This document shows, one piece after another, positions 9,831-25,843 of a DNA stretch of 25,843 nt (its first letter is position 1; each line of letters begins with the position of its first letter). Source of the DNA: a virus; IMG/VR virus record IMGVR_UViG_3300033155_000884, positions 1 to 25,843 of that record. One strand, given 5' to 3'. The notes beneath the pieces were generated by a model, which was not told the origin of the DNA, ran no database searches, and saw nothing but the letters and a program-made list of their open reading frames with translations. A program made the translations under genes and the position numbers.

Positions 9831-10445
9831 ATGGCTGACTGGACACAAGGCGACGAAACCAGCGCGCTAGACCATCAACTGGTAACCCACCCGGCGGTTA
9901 TCAAGGGCAACGCCGTTACGTGTACGGAATGGGATTCGGTCTTCTTGACACTGTTCCACGCGCTGGTTGAGGCAGTAGCAAATACCAACCCAGGGACATT
10001 TGTTGTTCGCGGTACGTTAGCCGGAAACGGTGACGATGGTTGGGTGATCCTCGGCAAGTTCACTTGTAGCTCCGGGACCGTCAACCCTGAAGTGTTGACC
10101 GCCGATGAGCCACCGGGCGAGACCGTCATTGCCGTGGCGAGTACGGCCGGCGCGTACGCTTCCGGCGAGTGGTGTTACCTCGACGATATTAGCCATATAG
10201 TTCAAAGCGAGTGGCGACGCATCGAATCCGTGCAGGCGAACACGTCGGTCACGTTGGTCGATGGACTGACGGCCGCGAAGAACAACACGGACAGCGATGT
10301 TATGTATGACATCGCCGACGTGTTCTTCTTGTCAATCGACGTTCGCGCACTGAAACGGTTCCGAGTTGACTTCGAGCACGGCGGTGCGGCCGGCGCAAAC
10401 TGCCACGTCAAGGGAACCTATGTCGCCGCAACGGATTTTGAATGA
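9831..10445 (+). CDS. Hypothetical beta-rich virion-type protein
   Basis: The 204-residue protein starts 1 base after the preceding stop, behind GAGGAGGACTAGG. It is beta-rich, with strands such as PGTFVVRGTLAGNGDDGWVI and the C-terminal KRFRVDFEHGGAAGANCHV. One segment, GETVIAVASTAGAYASGEW, resembles repeated turns seen in phage baseplate or fiber proteins. No family is recognised. Its stop overlaps the LamG-domain gene start (ATGATG), so the two are probably translated together and may form one structure. Confidence 0.65.
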   Translation: MADWTQGDETSALDHQLVTHPAVIKGNAVTCTEWDSVFLTLFHALVEAVANTNPGTFVVRGTLAGNGDDGWVILGKFTCSSGTVNPEVLTADEPPGETVIAVASTAGAYASGEWCYLDDISHIVQSEWRRIESVQANTSVTLVDGLTAAKNNTDSDVMYDIADVFFLSIDVRALKRFRVDFEHGGAAGANCHVKGTYVAATDFE

Positions 10446-11629
10446 TGATTGAGACGATCGCCAAACCGCAACTCTGGCTGCCCGGCATCAACCGGGGCCA
10501 CCAGCTTGCGCGCGGTCTCATCGGCGACTGGCCGTTGTGGGAGGGCACCGGCCAAGGCGTGATGGACGTGGCCAGCGGTAACGGCTCGCTCGACGGCACC
10601 GTCACCGGGGCGACGTGGGTGGGGAGTCAGTATGGGTATGCGCTGGAGTTCGACGGAGCAAGTAATCACCGTGTAACGGGTAGCGGTGCGTCATGGTTTC
10701 CCTATGCGTCCGACATGACGGTATCGTGTCTAGTGCGATTCGACACAATCGCCAAGGAGAAGATTTGTTGGTCGTGGGGGATTGACAACGGATACGGTAG
10801 TAACGAGATAGAGTTGAACACCAATTCATCAGATGGTGGCGTGCAATTCATGTGGAACACGGAGGCAACGGCAAGGGTCACGATTCCGTTGGCGGCTGAC
10901 ACGTGGGGGCATGTGGTATGTCAACGTCAAGGCACTAATATTCAGGCGTGGCTCGATGGGCAATCAGTTGGTACGGACGCAGGCGCTGGTAACCTGTTCT
11001 ACACTACTCACTCGTTACTACTGGGAGGTCCGGTCACGGATACACGGCATTTCGACGGACAGGTGTCGCTGTTCGCCGTCTGGGATCGTTATCTTACCCC
11101 CACCGAAATCGCCGGCCTCTACGCCGATCCGTTCGCGCGGCTGCGCCGGCGGTCGTCGGCCGCGGTGTTGAGTGCGGCAGCTGGCGCGCCGTCCGGTGCG
11201 ATCTCCGGCAACGCAACCGTGACGTTCACGGCAGCGGGTACGGTCAAGGGCACGGGCTCGTTGTCGGGCAGTGCAACCACGACATTCACCGCAGCCGGGA
11301 CCATCGGCGGTACGGGCTCGCTTTCCGGGGCCGCCACCGTGAGCTTCACCGTGGCCGCTACGATCTCAGCAACGGCGTCGATCAGCGGCAGCACGACGGT
11401 CACATTTACGGCCGCCGGCACGATCCGCGATCTGAGCGGGGCCATTGAGGGATCGGCGACCGTTACGTTTACCGTCGCAGCCACGATCCGGAAGAGGATC
11501 ACGGGACCCTATACGATTGCCGCCGGGCAGGCCTACGTTACCGGGCAAGCGGCGGGGCAAGCGTTCGATACCGGCGCGGCAGCCGGGCAAACCTACCTTA
11601 CAGGAGCGGCGGCCGCACAAGCCGCGTAG
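10442..11629 (+). CDS. LamG/concanavalin-like domain protein with C-terminal tandem repeats
   Basis: The 395-residue protein has a LamG-type (Laminin_G_3, concanavalin-like) domain at about residues 20-230. The signs are HQLARGLIGDWPLWEG, ALEFDGASNHRV, MTVSCLVRFD, the TWGHVVCQRQGTNIQAWLDG strand pair, and the closing FDGQVSLFAVWDRYLTPTEIAGLYADPF, which is highly characteristic. LamG domains commonly bind carbohydrate. The last 145 residues are five 20-residue Ser/Ala/Thr-rich repeats followed by three and a half 10-residue repeats, likely an elongated beta structure. Planctomycete and marine phages often carry such virion proteins. A head-surface or tail adhesin is likely; its place between capsid and connector genes favours a head appendage. 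Confidence 0.82.
   Translation: MMIETIAKPQLWLPGINRGHQLARGLIGDWPLWEGTGQGVMDVASGNGSLDGTVTGATWVGSQYGYALEFDGASNHRVTGSGASWFPYASDMTVSCLVRFDTIAKEKICWSWGIDNGYGSNEIELNTNSSDGGVQFMWNTEATARVTIPLAADTWGHVVCQRQGTNIQAWLDGQSVGTDAGAGNLFYTTHSLLLGGPVTDTRHFDGQVSLFAVWDRYLTPTEIAGLYADPFARLRRRSSAAVLSAAAGAPSGAISGNATVTFTAAGTVKGTGSLSGSATTTFTAAGTIGGTGSLSGAATVSFTVAATISATASISGSTTVTFTAAGTIRDLSGAIEGSATVTFTVAATIRKRITGPYTIAAGQAYVTGQAAGQAFDTGAAAGQTYLTGAAAAQAA
11195..11488 (+). repeat. Five tandem repeats of about 60 bp in the LamG-domain gene
   Basis: Five units encode a 20-residue consensus close to GSLSGSATVTFTAAGTIxxT (the last unit is 17 residues and one spacer residue is inserted before it). DNA copies differ at many third positions, so the repeat is old or selected at protein level. 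The alternating Thr/Val/Phe pattern predicts short beta strands stacked along an axis. Confidence 0.85.
11519..11626 (+). repeat. 30-bp tandem repeats at the 3' end of the LamG-domain gene
   Basis: Three full units and a partial one encode the 10-residue repeat AAGQ(A/T)(Y/F)xTG(Q/A): AAGQAYVTGQ, AAGQAFDTGA, AAGQTYLTGA and AAAQAA, ending at the stop codon. The unit is different from the 20-residue repeats just before it. Confidence 0.85.
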
Positions 11630-17425: not shown

Positions 17426-17583
17426 CAATCGCCCAGGCGCTGGACGCTCTGAAGCAGAAACCCACGCGCACCGGCCGCGTCTCATTGTCTACCGTGGGAG
17501 CGGCTGCGGTCTATCGTCAACGCCTGCACGACGAGCGTTCCGCTTGGGTTGAAGGAATGATCCGTGGCACTCAATCAATTTGA
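16814..17583 (+). CDS. Tail assembly chaperone GT (-1 frameshift product)
   Basis: A -1 shift at the slippery heptamer (17317-17323) would fuse the first 170 residues of G to 86 residues read in the other frame (codons from 17323 to the TGA at 17581-17583), giving about 256 residues. The extension is clearly coding: INWDGFFFTLRQRYRWTHEQ then IGKLTIAQALDALKQ, the R-x-x-x-S/T-x-E-Q-I-x-x-L-T pattern of gpT-like extensions, with a helical end (YRQRLHDERSAWVEGMI). No independent start codon with a ribosome binding site opens this part. Its stop lies 20 bases inside the tape measure gene. GT is the less abundant product, needed for tape measure/tube recruitment. Confidence 0.85.
17317..17350 (+). 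promoter_or_regulatory. -1 programmed ribosomal frameshift signal (slippery site and stem-loop)
   Basis: The heptamer GGGAAAC at 17317-17323 is in the right phase: zero-frame codons GGA and AAC slip back to GGG and AAA. After a 7-base spacer (17324-17330) comes a perfect stem, GCCCGCCG (17331-17338) with CGGCGGGC (17343-17350), closed by a GAGA loop. Lambda G/GT uses the closely related GGGAAAG. Heptamer, phase, spacing, structure and the coding character of the -1 frame all agree. Confidence 0.92.
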
Positions 17584-19510
17584 ACTCGCCGAGGCGTACG
17601 CCAAGCTAACCGTCCGCGACGGTGAGTTCAATCGTGCGATTGGCCGCACGGAAATGTCCCTGAAGCGATTGCAGGGCACGCTGGACGCCGCGGCCCGCAA
17701 GGCTCAGATGTTTCTGTTGGCCGGCGCGGCAGCGATCGCCGGCGTGATGAAGGTCACTTCCGACGCAGAAGAAACGATGAGCAAGTTCCGTATAGTCTTC
17801 AAAGGGCAGGCGGATGAGGCACTGGAATGGGCGAAGAAACTCGGCGAGAATGTCAAGCGGAGCCATTTCGATATCATCGGATTTATGGCCCGCTTTCAGG
17901 ACACCTTCGTCCCGATGGGTATTGCTCGCGAAGAAGCTACGAAGCTGTCGAAGACAATGACCAAGTTGACTATCGATCTAGCTAGCTTCAACAACGAGAA
18001 CGAAGCGGAGACGGCAAGCCTACTAACCGCGGCTTTGACTGGCACCCACGATGCCGTACGACGGTACGGTATTGTGCTTTCGGCATCTACTCTGAATCAA
18101 GAGTTGATGAATATGGGCATCGCGAAGGGTATTCGTGGTGCGACCGAATTACAGAAGACACAGGCACGGCTCAACCTTATGCTGAGCATGACGGCCGATG
18201 CCCAGGGGGACGCGGCCCGGACGTCGGATAGCTTGGCGAATCAATGGAAGGATATGATATCAGACGTCAAGAAACTAGCGATTCAGTTTGGCCAGCAGAT
18301 GCTTCCCGCAATTATTGCGATCATCGAAGATGTAAAGAAGCTCATTGATTGGCTAAGTAGTCTATCCGATGAGACGAAAAAACTTATCGGGGAGTGGGGC
18401 CTGTGGGCCGTCAAGGCCGCGCTGGTTGTCACTGTGTTAGCCAAAGTAACGAGTGGGGTAATCAGCCTGACGGCGATGATAAAGAAACTGGCGGTCGCAA
18501 CCGGAATGCTCAATGCGGCATCGATGCTCGGCGGAGGTCTTGCCGGTATTGTTGGCGGCGGCGGGGCGAAAGTCTTTCGCGGTCGGGCGGCTGGCGCTGC
18601 GATGGCGGGGGCCCCGCTGGTTGCTTCCAGGATCGGCGGCTTGGCTAGTCGCGGCGGGGGCCTGGCCAAGATGTTTGGCTTTACGGGGCTTGCTGCGGGC
18701 AGCGGGGGCTTGCTCGGGATGCTTGGCCTTGGGGGTCTTGCGGGCGCGATAGGCGCGGGGATCATCGGCGAAGGGATTATGCACCCACTCCGGGGCCAGA
18801 AGGCCCGTAAAGACAAGGCGCTTGACGAAGAAATTATGAAGAAGAACGAAGAGACGATGCGCCACGCCAAGCGGGTGTGGATTGATATCAATGATAACCA
18901 CCAGAGGAACCTGGATATCTTCGCCCGTGCCGGCGAGCGGGGCCGCAAGGCAGCAGAAGCCGGGTCCAAGAGTTCTGCGGCCCATCAGCTTGGGCTCCTT
19001 CAGGAGTGGAAGAAGAGTCAAGCGGCGGCGTTGGAGAATGCCCAGGCTTTCGAGACGGCTGCGAAGGAAGCCGGGCATTTGGGCGAGAAGGGTTCGCCGG
19101 CAGTCAAGGCGTTCACCGAACAGGTGGAGGCGATTGACAAGGCGATCGCGAAGCTAACGGCGAGCATCGCGGAGGCCGCGGTAGAGGAGGCGGCCTTGGC
19201 AGCGAAGAAGGCCGAACAGATCGCACAACTCAACGATATGCGGCGGGAGACTACGCGGACCCAGGCTAGCGTGGCGGGGCGGTTCCATGAGCGCGAGCGG
19301 AAGTTGATGGACGCTATCCGAAATCCCGGGCGCGGCGTCACCTTCCGCGATACGGGCTTTGCGTTCGGGGCCTCGTTCCAGCAGGCCGTAGGCTCGCAAA
19401 TCACCGGAGCGATGGAGCAACAGTTGGAGGTGCAGCGTAGCTCGCTGGAAGAACTGAAGGGCATTCACCAGGAACTCGCGGAAGTCCATGAATTGAACTG
19501 GGGGGCCTGA
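17564..19510 (+). CDS. Tail tape measure protein
   Basis: The 648-residue protein is the longest in the window and follows the chaperone pair. N-terminal helical region, then the phage-tail minor domain signs FGFMARFQDTFVPMG-like segment at about residue 105 and LTIDLASFNNENEAETASLL near 140, continuing GTHDAVRRYGIVLS. The middle (about 280-410) is hydrophobic Gly/Ala-rich (AAGSGGLLGMLGLGGLAGAI), a likely membrane-inserting part used in DNA delivery. The C-terminus is coiled-coil (QQLEVQRSSLEELKGIHQEL). The start is GTG 17564 with GAAGGA 7 bases upstream, overlapping GT by 20 bases. Length predicts a tail of about 100 nm by the usual 1.5 angstrom per residue rule. Confidence 0.92.
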   Translation: MALNQFELAEAYAKLTVRDGEFNRAIGRTEMSLKRLQGTLDAAARKAQMFLLAGAAAIAGVMKVTSDAEETMSKFRIVFKGQADEALEWAKKLGENVKRSHFDIIGFMARFQDTFVPMGIAREEATKLSKTMTKLTIDLASFNNENEAETASLLTAALTGTHDAVRRYGIVLSASTLNQELMNMGIAKGIRGATELQKTQARLNLMLSMTADAQGDAARTSDSLANQWKDMISDVKKLAIQFGQQMLPAIIAIIEDVKKLIDWLSSLSDETKKLIGEWGLWAVKAALVVTVLAKVTSGVISLTAMIKKLAVATGMLNAASMLGGGLAGIVGGGGAKVFRGRAAGAAMAGAPLVASRIGGLASRGGGLAKMFGFTGLAAGSGGLLGMLGLGGLAGAIGAGIIGEGIMHPLRGQKARKDKALDEEIMKKNEETMRHAKRVWIDINDNHQRNLDIFARAGERGRKAAEAGSKSSAAHQLGLLQEWKKSQAAALENAQAFETAAKEAGHLGEKGSPAVKAFTEQVEAIDKAIAKLTASIAEAAVEEAALAAKKAEQIAQLNDMRRETTRTQASVAGRFHERERKLMDAIRNPGRGVTFRDTGFAFGASFQQAVGSQITGAMEQQLEVQRSSLEELKGIHQELAEVHELNWGA

Positions 19511-19514
19511 CCCA

Positions 19515-20387
19515 ATGACCGTATACCGCGAAATGGCCGGCTCGCCGATCGAGACCTTTACCCGTGCTCGTGGCTTCACTGCCCAGCGGACGTTTCTCAC
19601 CGCATGGGCAACGAGGGCGACGGCCATCAAGGAAATCCTCGGCGACGGCTACGCTTACGGGTCAACGAAGCCTTGGACCTATCCTGATATGCCCGGCATC
19701 ATCACGGCCCAAGTGAAGGTAACGCCGTTCACCGATGACATCGAGGCGACGGTTCTCAATGACCTGAGTGTGGACATCAACTCGTATACGAACTATGCGA
19801 AGATCGTCGTGGATTACGAACCGGCTGAGGTCGAGAACGCCCAGCCGATGGAAGATCCAAAGGACGCAATCGAGGTCGAGGAAGGATACCTCACATACGA
19901 GATGACTTTCGCCGGCGCGAATCGGATGATTCCCGGGAATGCGATCCGCTGGTCATCTGACAGCACGCCGCCGACCGATGGGGAATGGACGAAGTTTCAT
20001 CGGCTTTCCGATATCGTTCACCACTGGACATGGCACCGGGTGCCCGAGCCGCCGCTGAAGGCAATACGGGCGTTGACGAACTTCGTCAACGCCGGCGACT
20101 TCATGGGCGCGGCCGATGGGACACTGCTCTTCGAGGGCGCGCGCATCCGTAAAGAATATCTACTCTCTGAGATTTTCGGCCGCCCGAAGCAGATGTTCCA
20201 GGTCGACTACACATTCCGCGAGCGACGGATCTTCACCGGCCTCGGGCAGTTCGCCGGCGGCTGGCAGTACGAGTACCGGAGCGACCCGGGGGAGGAGGGC
20301 TGGAGCCCTGTCGTTGACGCCAATGGCAGCCCGCTGTATGCTACCGGAGACTTCAGCAGTCTTTTCCTCCACCATCCGCAGCCCTAG
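19515..20387 (+). CDS. Tail tip/distal tail protein, unassigned
   Basis: The 290-residue protein immediately follows the tape measure gene, in the position of a distal tail or tail-hub component. It has mixed sequence: MPGIITAQVKVTPFTDDIEA, a strand-rich centre (YAKIVVDYEP), EWTKFHRLSDIVHHWTWHRV and a C-terminal FQVDYTFRERRIFTGLG followed by GGWQYEYRSDPGEEGW. I cannot match it to Dit or Tal families. Tail function is inferred from location between the tape measure and the collar-type fiber. ATG at 19515 lies 4 bases after the preceding stop, near a GGGGG tract. Confidence 0.68.
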   Translation: MTVYREMAGSPIETFTRARGFTAQRTFLTAWATRATAIKEILGDGYAYGSTKPWTYPDMPGIITAQVKVTPFTDDIEATVLNDLSVDINSYTNYAKIVVDYEPAEVENAQPMEDPKDAIEVEEGYLTYEMTFAGANRMIPGNAIRWSSDSTPPTDGEWTKFHRLSDIVHHWTWHRVPEPPLKAIRALTNFVNAGDFMGAADGTLLFEGARIRKEYLLSEIFGRPKQMFQVDYTFRERRIFTGLGQFAGGWQYEYRSDPGEEGWSPVVDANGSPLYATGDFSSLFLHHPQP

Positions 20388-20399
20388 GCGCAAGGCGAA

Positions 20400-21671
20400 A
20401 TGATGGCCAAGATACCGGACGTGCAGCCGGGCGATCCTCTTAGTGCAGAACGCCAGAACGAGTTGATTGCGATCATCAACGCGCTGCAACACTCCGAGAT
20501 CCAGGGCGGCCTTGGCGAGCGCGGCGGGGCCGGGCAACAGGTTCTCATCCCGCCGCGAACTCGGTTGGTGATGTTTGAAACCGGCGGGCCGCTCATTTAC
20601 CCGGAGACGGCAACGCTTGCCCCGTACGCCACGTGCCACCGGATTATCTGGAAAGATCAGGCAGACGAGTATGGGGACGAGCACCCTAATGACGTGAGGG
20701 TCTACTTCCCGCATGCCGTGGGGGCGGGCGCCGGCGCCGGCTTCGAGGGTCTGCCAATTGTCCCGCGCCGTGTCTGGGCTACGTGGAATCGCCAGTCGGC
20801 CCGCTGGGAGGCGATCGTCCAGACCCAGACCGTATGGCGTGGGACGCTGGACGGCACGCTGAGCCAGGGTAGCTCGGCCACCGTCAACATCTGGCTCTAT
20901 GCCGGCAGTGATCTGGATACGAACATCGACGTCACGGCCTACGATTGGCTGCTCGGGGCAAACCAGTCGATAGCCAGCGGGGCGAAGGTGGTCATCCTGT
21001 GGTCCGAAGACGATGGCCGGTTCTATGTGATCGCCGCGGAGGGGGCCGGCGGTGGGCTGAAGCTCTGGGCAAAGGCCCAGGACATCTGGCAAGAGAATAG
21101 CGGCGATCCGCGGGTATCGTGTAAGGTCTGCCAACGGGACGGCAGTGGCGAGACCGGGGATGCCTTCTGGATTTACCTCCCTCGGCGCCGCGGTGTATCA
21201 ACGGACTTCGACCCGGACATCTACAGCGGCGACGTAATCCCCTGGGAGATTGACGCCGAGGGGACGGCGTTCTGCACCGGGGAATACCTGCACTCCAAGA
21301 TCGGCGATCTACGCTGGCAGAAAGCGGCACTGCGAATCCCGACCGGCTGGCAAGAATGCGATAGCACAAACAGTTCATGGGACGCGACCGGCCGGGTGCT
21401 GATGGGCCGGGATGCCGATGGTGCTGATGACGAGAACGTGGCCGGCAAAACCGGGGGAGAGAGCGTACACGGTGACGGGACGAACGATCACACCGACCAT
21501 CCGATTACAATTAGCAAGCAGTCCTGGGGCGATTCATCCCCCGATTCATCCGAGCAAGTGGTTGACGATATCGACGAAAAGGTAGGCGGCGGCGAGCACC
21601 TGTTGACCCATTCCGAAACTGACAACCGCATGCCATACAAGGTGGCGATTCTGATTGAGCGATTCGTGTAA
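20400..21671 (+). CDS. Tail fiber protein with collar-like C-terminal domain
   Basis: The 423-residue protein has a virion-anchoring N-terminus (VQPGDPLSAERQNELIAIIN, a segment common at the start of phage tail fibers), a long Gly-rich beta middle, and a C-terminal tail-collar-like part from about residue 320: IPTGWQECDSTNSSWDATGR, VLMGRDADGADDENVAGK, HGDGTNDHTDH, and the closing RMPYKVAILIERFV. The P-x-G-W-x-x-C/L-D with G-R-x-x-x-G and a final P-Y-x-x-x-x-x-I-E-R are the usual collar signs. It probably recognises host surface glycans or proteins. Two adjacent ATG codons open it (20400, 20403). It ends 12 bases before the first glycosyltransferase. Confidence 0.8.
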   Translation: MMAKIPDVQPGDPLSAERQNELIAIINALQHSEIQGGLGERGGAGQQVLIPPRTRLVMFETGGPLIYPETATLAPYATCHRIIWKDQADEYGDEHPNDVRVYFPHAVGAGAGAGFEGLPIVPRRVWATWNRQSARWEAIVQTQTVWRGTLDGTLSQGSSATVNIWLYAGSDLDTNIDVTAYDWLLGANQSIASGAKVVILWSEDDGRFYVIAAEGAGGGLKLWAKAQDIWQENSGDPRVSCKVCQRDGSGETGDAFWIYLPRRRGVSTDFDPDIYSGDVIPWEIDAEGTAFCTGEYLHSKIGDLRWQKAALRIPTGWQECDSTNSSWDATGRVLMGRDADGADDENVAGKTGGESVHGDGTNDHTDHPITISKQSWGDSSPDSSEQVVDDIDEKVGGGEHLLTHSETDNRMPYKVAILIERFV

Positions 21672-21683
21672 AGGCGCAAGCAA

Positions 21684-22715
21684 GTGAAAATCTATTGCAT
21701 CGGAGGCCCCGCCGACATAGGCGGAGCCAATACGGAGCTATGGCACACGGTCAAGCTGTGGCGATCGTTCGGCGTTGACGTCACGATCTTGCCGCAGCAT
21801 GGCGCGGAGGTGACTATTGCATGGAGAAAACGGCTTGACGGTATCGGATGCCAGCTTCGGGCAGAACTACCGAAGGGCGGTGTCTGTGTTGGCTTCTGTA
21901 ATTCGCACTATCGCGCGATTGCGAAGGCGCTTCGGGCTCAGGGCAACCGGCTCGTGTACGTGCCCTGTATGTGCTACCAATTCCCGGACGAAGCCAAGCG
22001 GGAGTTGTTCGATCACTACATTTTCCAGACGCACTATCAGGCATCGCGGATACTGCCGGCGCTAGAACACAGAGGGCTCCCGCAGTCGCACTCTTCGATC
22101 ATCCGGGGTGCGTTCGATGTCACTGAGTTCGACCCGTCCAGCCGCTTGCGCCGCCGACGTCAGGGGGAGCCGTTCGTTATCGGGCGGCTCTCCCGGTCGG
22201 TTGCGCCAGTGGCCCTTGGCCGTGGCGGTACAGTGCCCGACGTCGAGAAATACCCACGCGGTCTCTGGCAGCAGTACGAGGCGATCGACTACCGACCGCT
22301 TCGCGCGCGGGTGATGGGCTGGAGCGGTATCATCCAGGGCCGTTGCGGCAAGCCGCCGGCGTGGGCCGAGGTCTTCCGCGATGGGGCGATGCCGGCGAAA
22401 GAATTTCTCCAGTCGATCCACGTTCTGATTCCCGGCATCGGCTGCTGCGAGGAGAACTGGTCTCGCGTTGGATTGGAGGCTATGGCCTGCGGCGTGCCGG
22501 TCGTGGCGGAGGATAAGGGCGGCTGGCGAGAAATGACCGGCGTCGTTCGGGCGCTTACGCCGGGCTCACAGGCCCTATTCCCATCGGCCTGGGCTCGTGA
22601 CCCGGAAACGTACGAGGCCAACCGGCAGCGGGTACGCGCGGCGGTCGAGGAACTCTGCAGGCCAGAACCAATTTGGCAGGCGTGGCTGTCAATATTCGAG
22701 AGGCTGGAAGCATAA
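21684..22715 (+). CDS. Glycosyltransferase, GT-B fold (GT4-like)
   Basis: The 343-residue protein begins MKIYCIGGPADIGGANTEL, a GT-B Rossmann strand and glycine loop, and has at residues 256-275 EENWSRVGLEAMACGVPVVA. Glu257 and Glu265 make the E-x7-E motif of retaining GT-B enzymes that binds the sugar nucleotide, followed by DKGGWREM. It should transfer an activated sugar; donor and acceptor are unknown. Start GTG 21684 is 12 bases after the tail-fiber stop, with GGCGCAAG upstream. It is the first of a run of alternating glycosyltransferase and methyltransferase genes, so a common glycan pathway is likely. Confidence 0.85.
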   Translation: MKIYCIGGPADIGGANTELWHTVKLWRSFGVDVTILPQHGAEVTIAWRKRLDGIGCQLRAELPKGGVCVGFCNSHYRAIAKALRAQGNRLVYVPCMCYQFPDEAKRELFDHYIFQTHYQASRILPALEHRGLPQSHSSIIRGAFDVTEFDPSSRLRRRRQGEPFVIGRLSRSVAPVALGRGGTVPDVEKYPRGLWQQYEAIDYRPLRARVMGWSGIIQGRCGKPPAWAEVFRDGAMPAKEFLQSIHVLIPGIGCCEENWSRVGLEAMACGVPVVAEDKGGWREMTGVVRALTPGSQALFPSAWARDPETYEANRQRVRAAVEELCRPEPIWQAWLSIFERLEA

Positions 22716-22724
22716 GGAAACGTA

Positions 22725-23312
22725 ATGTCTACCGATATCGAAATTACCGCGAGGTTTATCCGGGAGTGCGGCGAGGTTCGCAGCAACCTCAAGGAGAAGC
22801 GGCACTTCCAGCAAGTGGCCACCGAGATCGGAAGTATTCTCGCGTGGCTCCACCCGCACCGGAAGGGCTTTGTATCTTACCTTGAGATAGGCGCGGGGGC
22901 TGGGTTGCTTGCCGCAACAGTCACGCGATTACTCGGCATCCCAAACGCCTACCTAATCGATAACAACAAGTACGACTGGGCACACGATCAGCGGGCCTTA
23001 AATATACCCGATGCAATTCAGTGGGAAGGCGACTCCACCAGCAAGGAGTGCGCAGCGGCGGTTGCTGGTTGGGATGCGCTGATGGATGTCGTCTTGATTG
23101 ACGGCGGGCACTCTCGCGAGCAGGTCACATCTGATACCCTGTTAGCCCTGTCAATTGCCTCCCCGGGCTGTTGGTTTATTTACCACGACTTTGAGTCTCG
23201 GAAAGGCGTGCAGCAATGCCTTCGGGACGTGGACGCCGGGAAGATTCCGGGGCTCGTGCGTATCGTTCAGTTCGGCAATACAATCCTTTATCGAGAAACG
23301 AGACAAACATGA
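22725..23312 (+). CDS. Class I SAM-dependent methyltransferase (Methyltransf_24-like), first copy
   Basis: The 195-residue protein has motif I YLEIGAGAG at residues 52-60, an acidic residue at the end of strand 2 (AYLIDNN), and the DVVLIDGGHS segment at 121-130 with a following YHDF. This V-x-I-D-G-x-H layout is typical of the Methyltransf_24 group, whose members often methylate sugars or small molecules. It lies 9 bases after a glycosyltransferase gene, behind AAGGAAACGTA, and its stop overlaps the start of the next glycosyltransferase (ATGA). It probably O-methylates a sugar laid down by the neighbours; this is inference. Confidence 0.82.
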   Translation: MSTDIEITARFIRECGEVRSNLKEKRHFQQVATEIGSILAWLHPHRKGFVSYLEIGAGAGLLAATVTRLLGIPNAYLIDNNKYDWAHDQRALNIPDAIQWEGDSTSKECAAAVAGWDALMDVVLIDGGHSREQVTSDTLLALSIASPGCWFIYHDFESRKGVQQCLRDVDAGKIPGLVRIVQFGNTILYRETRQT

Positions 23313-24034
23313 ATGACCTTCATGTCTATACCGTATCGACCGCCCCTCTTGCGGAAGTGCCGCTCAGCAAGCGGGCGCGCCCGGACATCATGCTTGCGTC
23401 AGCGGCGGCCTTCGGTGTCGACCTGCACGTTGAGCTTACGCCAGCAGTCGGAACCAGCCGGATGCGGCATAAGATCGTGGGCGCGAGGGTGGTTCTCGAA
23501 AGACTGCCTCCCGATGATATCCTTCTGATGTCTGACGGCTGGGATGTATTCTTTTCTGGTAACGCTGCTGGCATCTTGGAGGAATACCGCAAGCTGGATT
23601 CCCCGGTTGTGATCTCGGGGGAGTGCCGACTCTTCCCGCGGCTCGATGAGTTTGCAAACTACCCGGAGGCGCCGACTAAATACCGATACTGCAACTCCGG
23701 AGGCATCATTGGGACCGTTCGAGAATACAGGGAGCTTCACGACCACTATCTCGCAACGGAGCGATGGGACCCGGATTGGGGCTGCCAGCGTCTCTGGCAT
23801 AGTGCCTTCCTCGCGAGGCCGGATCTCTTGGCGATCGACTATCAGTGCAGGATCTTCCAGACCCTCGCCCAGCCGGATAATGGCACGCCGCCGACAGCAG
23901 ACCTGCATTTCGTCGATGGCAGAATCCACAATCGAGACACCGGCTCGACCCCTTACCTCGTTCACGGCAACGGGCCACGGACACAATTGGCGGTGCAATT
24001 ATGGGAGAAACAGAAGGCGGCCTTGCAGAACTAA
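23309..24034 (+). CDS. PLOD/procollagen-type glycosyltransferase
   Basis: The 241-residue protein resembles the glycosyltransferase domain of PLOD (procollagen lysyl hydroxylase/glycosyltransferase) proteins, also present in giant viruses and some phages. The GT-A metal-binding motif is LLMSDGWDVFF with Asp76 and Asp79 (compare the family D-A-Y-D). An ISGECRLFPRLDE segment corresponds to the family's A-E-x-x-C-W-P, then FANYP, YCNSGGIIG at 127-135, and the C-terminal HGNG at 219-222. All main family motifs are in order. The ATG at 23309 overlaps the methyltransferase stop. Metazoan members glucosylate galactosyl-hydroxylysine; the phage acceptor is unknown. Confidence 0.8.
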   Translation: MNDLHVYTVSTAPLAEVPLSKRARPDIMLASAAAFGVDLHVELTPAVGTSRMRHKIVGARVVLERLPPDDILLMSDGWDVFFSGNAAGILEEYRKLDSPVVISGECRLFPRLDEFANYPEAPTKYRYCNSGGIIGTVREYRELHDHYLATERWDPDWGCQRLWHSAFLARPDLLAIDYQCRIFQTLAQPDNGTPPTADLHFVDGRIHNRDTGSTPYLVHGNGPRTQLAVQLWEKQKAALQN

Positions 24035-24633
24035 GGCGGCGGTACCCATGGCCGGACAAGATCCCGGAGGTTCCGGAAGACCGACATGGCTGGTTTGGCG
24101 TGGCCAATCGCAAGGCGACCTCGGAAGCGCTCAGCGGAAAGAGCCGCGTCGTTCTTGAGTTGGGTGCATGGCTTGGGACATCAGCATCCCTGCTTTGCCA
24201 GTACGCGCCAAACGCAACCGTGATCTCCATTGACCATTGGAGGGGAAGCTCGGAGCATCAGCGGGTCCCGTCGTGGAAGGCTAAACTCCCGACACTTTAC
24301 GAGACCTTCCTCGTCAACTGCTGGGCGCTCCGCGATCGCCTGATCCCAATGAAGACCACGACGCTCGAGGGGATGGCTGAGATTGCTGACCTAGGCATCC
24401 AGCCGGATCTTGTTTATATCGATGCGGCCCATGAGGCAGAACCGGTATTCGCGGATGTCTCAACCGCACACGACCTTTTTCGCGGGGCCCGTATCATCGG
24501 CGATGACTGGACCTTGACGTCTGTCCGGCAGGGTGTAATCCGTGCCGCCCATGGCCAGCAACTAATCACGCACGGCAATACATGCTGGGAACTCCTGATC
24601 CAAGGGCGCCAATGGCCGAGCCACCGAAAATGA
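24001..24633 (+). CDS. Class I SAM-dependent methyltransferase, second copy
   Basis: The 210-residue protein has motif I VLELGAWLGTSA at residues 51-62, strand-2 ISIDHW at 76-81, DLVYIDAAHEAE at 136-147 and GDDW at 167-170. Order and D-x-x-x-I-D-x-x-H pattern match the same broad family as the methyltransferase at 22725, but the two are clearly divergent, so they are not a recent duplication. The start at 24001 overlaps the previous gene by 34 bases and has a weak GGCGG upstream. The stop overlaps the next ATG at 24630. Confidence 0.8.
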   Translation: MGETEGGLAELRRRYPWPDKIPEVPEDRHGWFGVANRKATSEALSGKSRVVLELGAWLGTSASLLCQYAPNATVISIDHWRGSSEHQRVPSWKAKLPTLYETFLVNCWALRDRLIPMKTTTLEGMAEIADLGIQPDLVYIDAAHEAEPVFADVSTAHDLFRGARIIGDDWTLTSVRQGVIRAAHGQQLITHGNTCWELLIQGRQWPSHRK

Positions 24634-25619
24634 AACTACTCTTCGCCTACAACCACGAGCTACACGCAGCGGCTCTCCTACGGTCGGCTGGAGCGTTCGC
24701 CCACTATGGGGTGCAGTTTATCCCTACTGACTTTGACCCGGTGCCGGACAGGCTGATTGACTGGGCCGAGGTCATCCTTCTCCAAGAGCCGCCGGTCCGG
24801 GATGCTGTAGTGGACTGCGGAAAGCCGGTGATCTTGCTCGAGCGTATCGACGGCGCACAACTGCGGGCCGCTCGGGAGTATCTTCCTCGTGTCGCTGGTG
24901 TAATCAAAGGATATCTATTCCGTGACCGGGATAGAAACAACGCTACGTTCGATCGCGCCCACGTCGAGATCCTTCACTGTGCCGGGATTACCGGGGCGAT
25001 GCCAAGACACCGTGAGGATTCACCGGAACCCAAGATTGCGGTCCCAGATTTACGCCGGATGTTCGCGGGCTACGGATTCGGGGCACACGCGCACATGGGG
25101 CGCCTGGTAGAGACGGTGATCGATTTCGACGTAGCGCGACCATACGATGCGAGTTTCCACGGCATCGTGGAATACAATCACAGCGAGATCGAGACGCACC
25201 GCAAGGCGGCCGTTAGCGCCGTGGAAACATGGCCGGGGCCGACGCTGTACGGTGCAGGTCGACCGCTGCGGCAAGAAGACTATTACCTAAGCCTGTTGCG
25301 ATCAAGGGCGGTCTTGTCGCCGTGGGGCTGGGGCGAGGCGTGTCATCGCGACTACGAGGCCATGCTCCTGGGTGCGGTGCTCATCAAGCCCGACACCTCG
25401 CATGTGAAGTGCTGGCCAGATATTTTCGCAACGGGGAAAACCTACGTTCCCTGCGAGCCCGATTTCTCGGACGCCCACGCGAAGATCGCTCACGTCCGGG
25501 ATCATTGGGACGACTATCGGACGCTAAGGGAACGCGCAAGGCACATGGCCCAACTTGCCTGGCGGCCCGGCTTGATTGCCGAGCGGATCGTCAATGTTGT
25601 CCGGAGGCTACTCGCATGA
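24630..25619 (+). CDS. Glycosyltransferase, GT-B-like, third in the cassette
   Basis: The 329-residue protein begins MKLLFAYNHELHAAALLRS. At residues 230-255 it has SPWGWGEACHRDYEAMLLG then AVLIKPD, the C-terminal nucleotide-sugar region S-P-x-G-x-G-E-x-x-x-R-x-Y-E-A-x-x-x-G seen in phage and bacterial glycosyltransferases that act on O-chains. CWPDIF follows. An upstream ATG (24612) is in frame, but ATG 24630 gives the ATGA overlap used throughout this cluster. Donor and acceptor are unknown. The stop overlaps the next gene's ATG, linking it to another methyltransferase. Confidence 0.77.
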   Translation: MKLLFAYNHELHAAALLRSAGAFAHYGVQFIPTDFDPVPDRLIDWAEVILLQEPPVRDAVVDCGKPVILLERIDGAQLRAAREYLPRVAGVIKGYLFRDRDRNNATFDRAHVEILHCAGITGAMPRHREDSPEPKIAVPDLRRMFAGYGFGAHAHMGRLVETVIDFDVARPYDASFHGIVEYNHSEIETHRKAAVSAVETWPGPTLYGAGRPLRQEDYYLSLLRSRAVLSPWGWGEACHRDYEAMLLGAVLIKPDTSHVKCWPDIFATGKTYVPCEPDFSDAHAKIAHVRDHWDDYRTLRERARHMAQLAWRPGLIAERIVNVVRRLLA

Positions 25620-25843
25620 TAACCCAGCAGCAGATCGAGGCACTGGCGGCCATTCATAATCCGAAGGATACGGCAGAAAAGTTTTGCCGCGACTGCGTGA
25701 AGTGGGATCGTATAGCAACGCACGTTTCCCAAGGCCTCGGGTTGCATGAGTCAGAGCCGAAGCGAATACTCGATCTTGGTTGCGGGTTTGGCTACTTCGC
25801 GAACGTGTGCCAGCAAATGGGGCACATGGTGACGGGTTTGGAT
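25616..25843 (+). CDS. SAM-dependent methyltransferase (partial, cut by window end)
   Basis: The first 76 codons are visible. The start overlaps the preceding glycosyltransferase stop as ATGA. A 25-residue helical N-terminus with CRDCVKW is followed by motif I ILDLGCGFGYFANV, the SAM-binding glycine loop, and the beginning of strand 2 (HMVTGLD). The clean D-L-G-C-G-F-G motif differs from the two earlier methyltransferases and resembles the UbiE/COQ5-type group. The rest lies beyond the window. Confidence 0.8.
   Translation, partial: MITQQQIEALAAIHNPKDTAEKFCRDCVKWDRIATHVSQGLGLHESEPKRILDLGCGFGYFANVCQQMGHMVTGLD

Follow-up and report, generated by a model that had tools for sequence, protein, structure and literature searches.

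The window, by which we mean the whole stretch of DNA analysed here (a complete IMG/VR record of 25,843 bp), ends in six close-packed genes on the plus strand (21684-25843), and the contig is cut off within the sixth. These genes follow directly after a tail fibre gene and encode a glycosyltransferase (GT), a methyltransferase (MT), a GT, an MT, a GT and a partial MT, as proposed in the first-pass annotation, and open reading frames, Pfam assignments and gene junctions all agree with that description. The tail genes and the cassette are arranged as follows (L-numbers denote loci compared with the window).

17564-19510, plus strand: tail tape-measure protein (PHROG tail length tape measure, E 7e-20)
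19515-20387, plus strand: t290, conserved tail protein 5' of the cassette (32-36% identity to genes in the same place in L004, L005, L075, L088, L091 and L094)
20400-21671, plus strand: fib, tail-fibre-like protein and candidate acceptor (N-terminal family common to the fibres of L004, L091, L092, L103, L116 and L005)
21684-22715, plus strand: GT1, GT4-type (GT-B) glycosyltransferase, conserved first gene of the cassette (Pfam and PDB profile matches)
22725-23312, plus strand: MT1, SAM-dependent methyltransferase, Methyltransf_24 (PF13578, E 5e-8; motif LEIGAGAG)
23309-24034, plus strand: GT2, GT_PLOD-type (GT-A) glycosyltransferase (PF25342, E 5e-19)
24001-24633, plus strand: MT2, SAM-dependent methyltransferase, Methyltransf_24 (PF13578, E 7e-9; homologs with 41-47% identity in L002, L003 and L005)
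24630-25619, plus strand: GT3, predicted GT-B-fold glycosyltransferase, family unassigned (AF2 model; homologs in L002, L003 and L004)
25616-25843, plus strand: MT3, Methyltransf_23-like, 76 aa, cut by the contig end (Methyltransf_23, 5e-5)

The stop codon of fib is separated from GT1 by 12 bp, and the junctions within the cassette comprise one 9-bp gap, three 4-bp ATGA overlaps and one 34-bp overlap. Given these short gaps and overlaps, the cassette has the structure of an operon with coupled translation. GT1 starts with a GTG codon, and the start of GT2 is at 23309 and not at 23216. None of the cassette proteins of the window has a transmembrane segment, which makes it plausible that they act in the cytosol.

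The three GTs are of different types, as had been suggested: Pfam, PDB and an AF2 model place GT1 as a GT4-type GT-B enzyme, GT2 as a GT-A enzyme resembling PLOD and R699, and GT3 as another GT-B enzyme. GT1 matches Pfam Glyco_trans_1_4 (E 2e-5) and, by PDB profile, BshA and other GT4 enzymes; its E257 and E265 (E-x7-E) are invariant across the alignment, and the solved structures nearest to it are enzymes using small molecules such as malate. Among solved relatives, GT2 matches mimivirus R699 (E 4e-14) and human LH3. The MTs are less diverse than had been supposed. MT3 is indeed set apart as Methyltransf_23-like, with 41% identity over the overlap to a homolog in L002 (11020-11595), but MT1 (34.3 bits) and MT2 (36.9 bits) both score above the Pfam gathering cut-off for Methyltransf_24 (26.3) and belong to this one family. 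Pfam assigns GT1, GT2 and MT1-MT3 but gives only weak, sub-threshold RXYLT1_C/Glyco_trans_1_2 matches for GT3, which has no match in the PDB by sequence. When an AF2 model of GT3 (pLDDT 70, from a four-sequence alignment) was compared with the PDB using Foldseek, GT-B enzymes filled the top matches with a probability of 1.0 and a modest TM-score (about 0.55), and on this model GT3 is predicted to be a GT-B-fold glycosyltransferase.

Homologs of GT3 were found only in L002, L003 and L004 and in none of the genome contigs, and comparison with INPHARED yielded no DNA match to the window and no protein match to GT3 or MT1. A single-sequence search with GT2 found no viral relative. A GT_PLOD scan of 21 relatives matched none of them, and its controls gave no match either, so that it does not show absence; in cyanophage S-8S55, a GT_PLOD domain is likewise encoded a few genes 3' of the tail fibre.

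GT1 was searched for with a four-sequence profile in 85,462 species genomes and in viral contigs. It was present in 14 genome contigs, 14/14 of which are from Planctomycetota (Pirellulales, Planctomycetaceae, Thermoguttaceae and relatives), and in 22 viral contigs; the 37 GT1 loci form 23 clusters at 70% GT1 identity. Structural genes homologous to those of the window or its relatives adjoin GT1 in 10 of the 14 genome loci. Based on this taxonomic range and these structural neighbours, the host of the window phage is most likely a member of the Planctomycetota. The position of GT1 is also conserved: it usually comes immediately after tail genes, and in many contigs these include homologs of t290 and/or fib; in L121, a divergent t290 relative, there is no GT within 5.6 kb.

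Four of the six cassette genes of the window recur in the same order and with 41-44% identity in another phage, which argues that these genes are real beyond chance. In L002, which was found via GT3, the cassette lies behind tail genes and consists of GT1, a sulfotransferase, MT2, GT3, MT3, two related unassigned genes and a GT4, while L003 has MT2-GT3-MT3 together with one of these two unassigned genes, and this core lies shortly 3' of the portal gene and not behind tail genes. The cassette of L004 comprises GT1, DUF1360, GT3, Sulfotransfer_2 and a GT-D (DUF1792) enzyme, and that of L005 GT1, MT2, a GT2-family enzyme and a GT4. What is conserved is GT1 in first place and the core MT2-GT3-MT3.

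The genes that follow GT1 in the relatives are mostly for glycan transfer or decoration and encode GT2-family, GT4, GT64-like, GT-D and GT7C enzymes, sulfotransferases, radical SAM proteins, Methyltransf_24 and a cytidylyltransferase. In L103, the genes run GT2_4, SPASM, GT7C, GT29 (sialyltransferase), B12/radical SAM, RraA-like, NeuB, CTP_transf_3 (CMP-sugar synthetase), Sulfotransfer_4 and Galactosyl_T, a set that includes central steps in the synthesis of a nonulosonic acid. Such a content is in keeping with a variable glycan, but not with one fixed pathway.

In many relatives, the tail gene directly 5' of GT1 carries long Ser-rich tracts, with extremes of 40/40 residues in L095 and of 352 Ser in L107. 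Most of these tracts use five or six serine codons, which suggests selection on the protein and not a DNA repeat. In an automated count, the nearest upstream gene had a tract (at least 50% Ser+Thr over 40 residues) in 5/20 GT1 clusters compared to 2/210 other proteins (Fisher p 6e-5), with near-copies clustered and shared ancestry not fully removed. This count is conservative because in the L095 cluster and in L103 the gene taken as the nearest upstream was not the Ser-rich fibre. To our knowledge, poly-Ser fibres of planctomycete phages have not been described before, and a limited literature search found no prior report of them. Within the N-terminal family of fib, which has no match in Pfam, the L004, L092 and L103 members are Ser-rich while the window copy is not (6% Ser), and the fibres of the window, L005 and L091 have no Ser-rich tract. 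The acceptor is, therefore, not visible in the window itself. A collagen-like acceptor was considered for the window and rejected, as there is no long collagen-looking G-X-Y run. Moreover, poly-Ser tracts can be nothing more than flexible linkers.

A second fibre family (type B, 43 loci) served as an independent anchor. GT1 comes next in 12 of the 13 cases in which a type-B Ser-rich fibre has enough flank. Ten type-B loci were initially classed as free of GTs, and this classification was rejected because L139 and L142 carry a different cassette; the 2x2 contrast of type-B loci with and without GT1 does not, then, mean that glycosylation is missing from the latter. The GT1-free loci mostly have a short fibre gene and a Ser/Gly-rich gene followed by Mannosyl_trans3, an FkbM methyltransferase and a GT4. 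This GT71-FkbM-GT4 cassette is unrelated to the GT1 type and has the same logic, again in the order GT-MT-GT. By parsimony, the fibre tree requires five switches between the GT1-type arrangement and the other, although support is weak.

As the probable explanation of these observations, we suggest that the six genes are one version of a modular cassette for glycan decoration, found directly behind the tail fibre gene in phages and prophages of Planctomycetota, which acts in the cytosol to place O-glycans on the tail fibre of the phage itself; the glycan would then be methylated, sulfated or sialylated. In this model, GT1 would act before assembly and attach the first sugar to its putative acceptor, the fibre protein of the same phage. 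Subsequently, GT2 and GT3 would extend the glycan, and MT1-MT3 would O-methylate hydroxyls of its sugars, while in other phages sulfotransferases or nonulosonic acids would take the place of methylation. The outcome would be a varied virion surface, which might serve adsorption or shielding. Points against this model are that the fibres of the window, L005 and L091 lack a Ser-rich tract, that the core of L003 lies near the portal gene, and that the nearest solved relatives of GT1 use small molecules. The first-pass annotation had taken the alternation of GTs and MTs as the signature of a stepwise, partly O-methylated glycan. The stepwise glycan is supported, with the virion fibre as its probable site, by gene co-occurrence, by position and by the Ser-rich fibres of the relatives; the alternation does not hold up as a signature because order and content vary.

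More tentatively, and as a generalization that we regard as plausible while falling somewhat short of probable, phages of Planctomycetota may carry "phage mucins", i.e. Ser-rich fibres O-glycosylated in the cytosol by a dedicated first enzyme (GT1 or, in a second lineage, one of the Mannosyl_trans3/GT71 type), with swappable methylating, sulfating and sialylating modules, of which the window would have the methylating version. If so, the tail surface would be varied by swapping whole sugar-pathway modules, unlike variation by changes in fibre sequence, with adsorption specificity or shielding as the purpose of the swapped modules. These phages would then also be the source of a soluble system for protein O-glycosylation, in which the acceptor is simple poly-Ser and there is an obvious candidate for the first enzyme, and the role of poly-Ser phage fibres would become a directly testable question.

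It is unlikely that the cassette instead remodels a host surface glycan during infection or lysogeny, giving rise to seroconversion or superinfection exclusion in a gtr-like manner. Loci for surface polysaccharides typically carry such genes (GT, MT, sulfotransferase and sialic acid genes), and GT1 is also present in planctomycete genome contigs, some of them prophage-like. However, the window cassette contains no membrane-bound GT, polyprenyl-phosphate GT or flippase; specifically, among gtr-type parts (GtrA flippase, GtrB polyprenyl-P GT and GtrC membrane GT), there is no Pfam match to GtrA/B and no transmembrane segment. Among all enzymes checked, the sole exception is the small DUF1360 protein of L004, which has a transmembrane segment. 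Moreover, the cassette lies directly 3' of the fibre gene within the structural operon, and in relatives is associated with Ser-rich tail genes. The lack of a membrane or flippase component in the window cassette also speaks against the earlier suggestion that host LPS is changed to block superinfection.

The target could also be a different protein of the virion, for example that of the major capsid or the tail tube, with proximity to the fibre gene being a convenience of the late operon. The capsids of Che8 and Rita carry glycans and these phages encode GTs (PMC11256854), and the window fibre lacks a Ser tract; by contrast, two unrelated cassettes repeatedly pair with Ser-rich tail genes, and we consider this alternative quite improbable. 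We give similarly little credence to an ordered pathway in which methylation of each sugar immediately follows its addition and gene order equals step order. The order of GTs and MTs in the window and its three ATGA couplings are as such a pathway would have them, and MT2-GT3-MT3 is retained in L002 and L003. However, strict alternation is not kept, as the order differs in L002, L004 and L005. If three GTs and three MTs are placed in random order, a GT-first alternation has a probability of 1/20 (5%), and the strict alternation is compatible with chance. Finally, modification of phage DNA (hypermodified bases) by the cassette is highly improbable: a Mom-family protein is encoded on the same contig (625-1473), but about 20 kb from the cassette, the GTs give no Pfam match to T4-type DNA glucosyltransferases, and the neighbouring genes in the relatives are sulfotransferase and sialic acid genes.

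Glycosylation of the fibre would have several counterparts in known systems. In logic, the closest analogue is provided by the loci for serine-rich-repeat adhesins in Gram-positive bacteria (GtfA/GtfB and further GTs; PMC6973325). As in these loci, in the relatives of the window the gene for a Ser-rich acceptor adjoins a first GT4, which is conserved, and later GTs, which vary, and even a GT-D (DUF1792) enzyme is present, in L004. By contrast, the acceptor here would be a phage tail protein, and the window fibre is not Ser-rich. No GtfB/DUF1975 partner and no SecA2/Y2 accessory Sec component was seen among the cassette genes scanned with Pfam and, therefore, the cassette may be said to work like the adhesin system, not to be one.

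GT2 is of the same fold family as the collagen glucosyltransferases PLOD/LH3 and mimivirus R699 (PMC9546862, PMC11838735). The DxxD of the Mn2+ site is kept (D76/D79; D83/D86 in R699), and E105, N129, H219 and N221 align with E114, N138, H216 and N218 of R699. However, W118 of R699 is replaced by F109 and the acidic pair D162/D163 is absent, and donor and acceptor of GT2 can therefore not be read from R699. No collagen-like acceptor or hydroxylase was seen in the window, so that a collagen-type activity of GT2 should not be assumed. Glycogene clusters of giant viruses (mimivirus, CroV, chlorovirus A064R; PMC9614988) similarly combine GTs with sugar O-methyltransferases and yield a capped virion glycan. 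They differ in belonging to giant viruses of eukaryotic hosts, and the homology comparison covers GT2 and R699.

Among phages, mycobacteriophage Maravista encodes several GTs, and the capsids of its relatives Che8 and Rita are glycosylated (PMC11256854, citing Freeman et al. 2023). Together with the planctomycete relatives, which have several glycan-transfer genes each, Maravista contradicts the notion that known phages carry single GTs. The likeness is that GTs encoded by these mycobacteriophages are thought to act on structural proteins. Two features of a virion-glycosylation locus, phage-encoded GTs and linkage to structural genes, are present here, as read from the genes. The differences are the host phylum, the modular cassette behind the tail fibre, and the mucin-like fibres, sulfotransferases and sialic acid genes of the relatives. 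Thus, with several GTs and glycosylated capsids already described in phages, virion glycosylation is a known kind of system, while its planctomycete version with mucin-like fibres looks new, the new points being its group of hosts, its location behind the fibre, its modular build and its association with mucin-like fibres in the relatives.

The L103 locus, which lies on a viral contig and shares with its relatives GT1, the conserved GT4-type glycosyltransferase gene at the start of the cassette, carries, as a single run (L103:9748-17660) placed after the tail genes and GT1, genes for NeuB, CTP_transf_3, a GT29 sialyltransferase and a sulfotransferase. This run covers the main steps of a nonulosonic acid pathway carried by a phage. 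Within GT1-type cassettes, radical SAM/SPASM genes adjoin glycosyltransferase genes in several cases (L078:2739-3512, L098:7161-8549 and L103:10632-14207), and a gene for a small DUF1360 membrane protein (L004:9485-9763) is flanked by GT1 on one side and by GT3, encoding a GT-B-fold glycosyltransferase, on the other.

A second, unrelated cassette follows a mucin-like tail gene in loci found from the second fibre family. Here, a Ser/Gly-rich tail gene is followed by Mannosyl_trans3, FkbM methyltransferase and GT4 genes (L139:6700-10495, L142:6700-11251, L141, L132 and L155).

In the window itself, a ParB-like gene (2-595) precedes a DNA modification gene of the Mom family (625-1473), which lies upstream of the terminase gene. 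In the head-tail region, the product of 10442-11629 has a Laminin_G_3/ConA-like lectin domain and a C-terminal part rich in Thr/Ser/Ala/Gly, and is possibly a carbohydrate-binding virion protein.

In Synechococcus phage S-8S55, three genes annotated as 2OG-Fe(II) oxygenases follow the tail fibre gene (L122:4041-7083), and one of the three contains a GT_PLOD domain, the Pfam family of the window's GT2. These genes suggest that the fibre of this cyanophage may be both hydroxylated and glycosylated.
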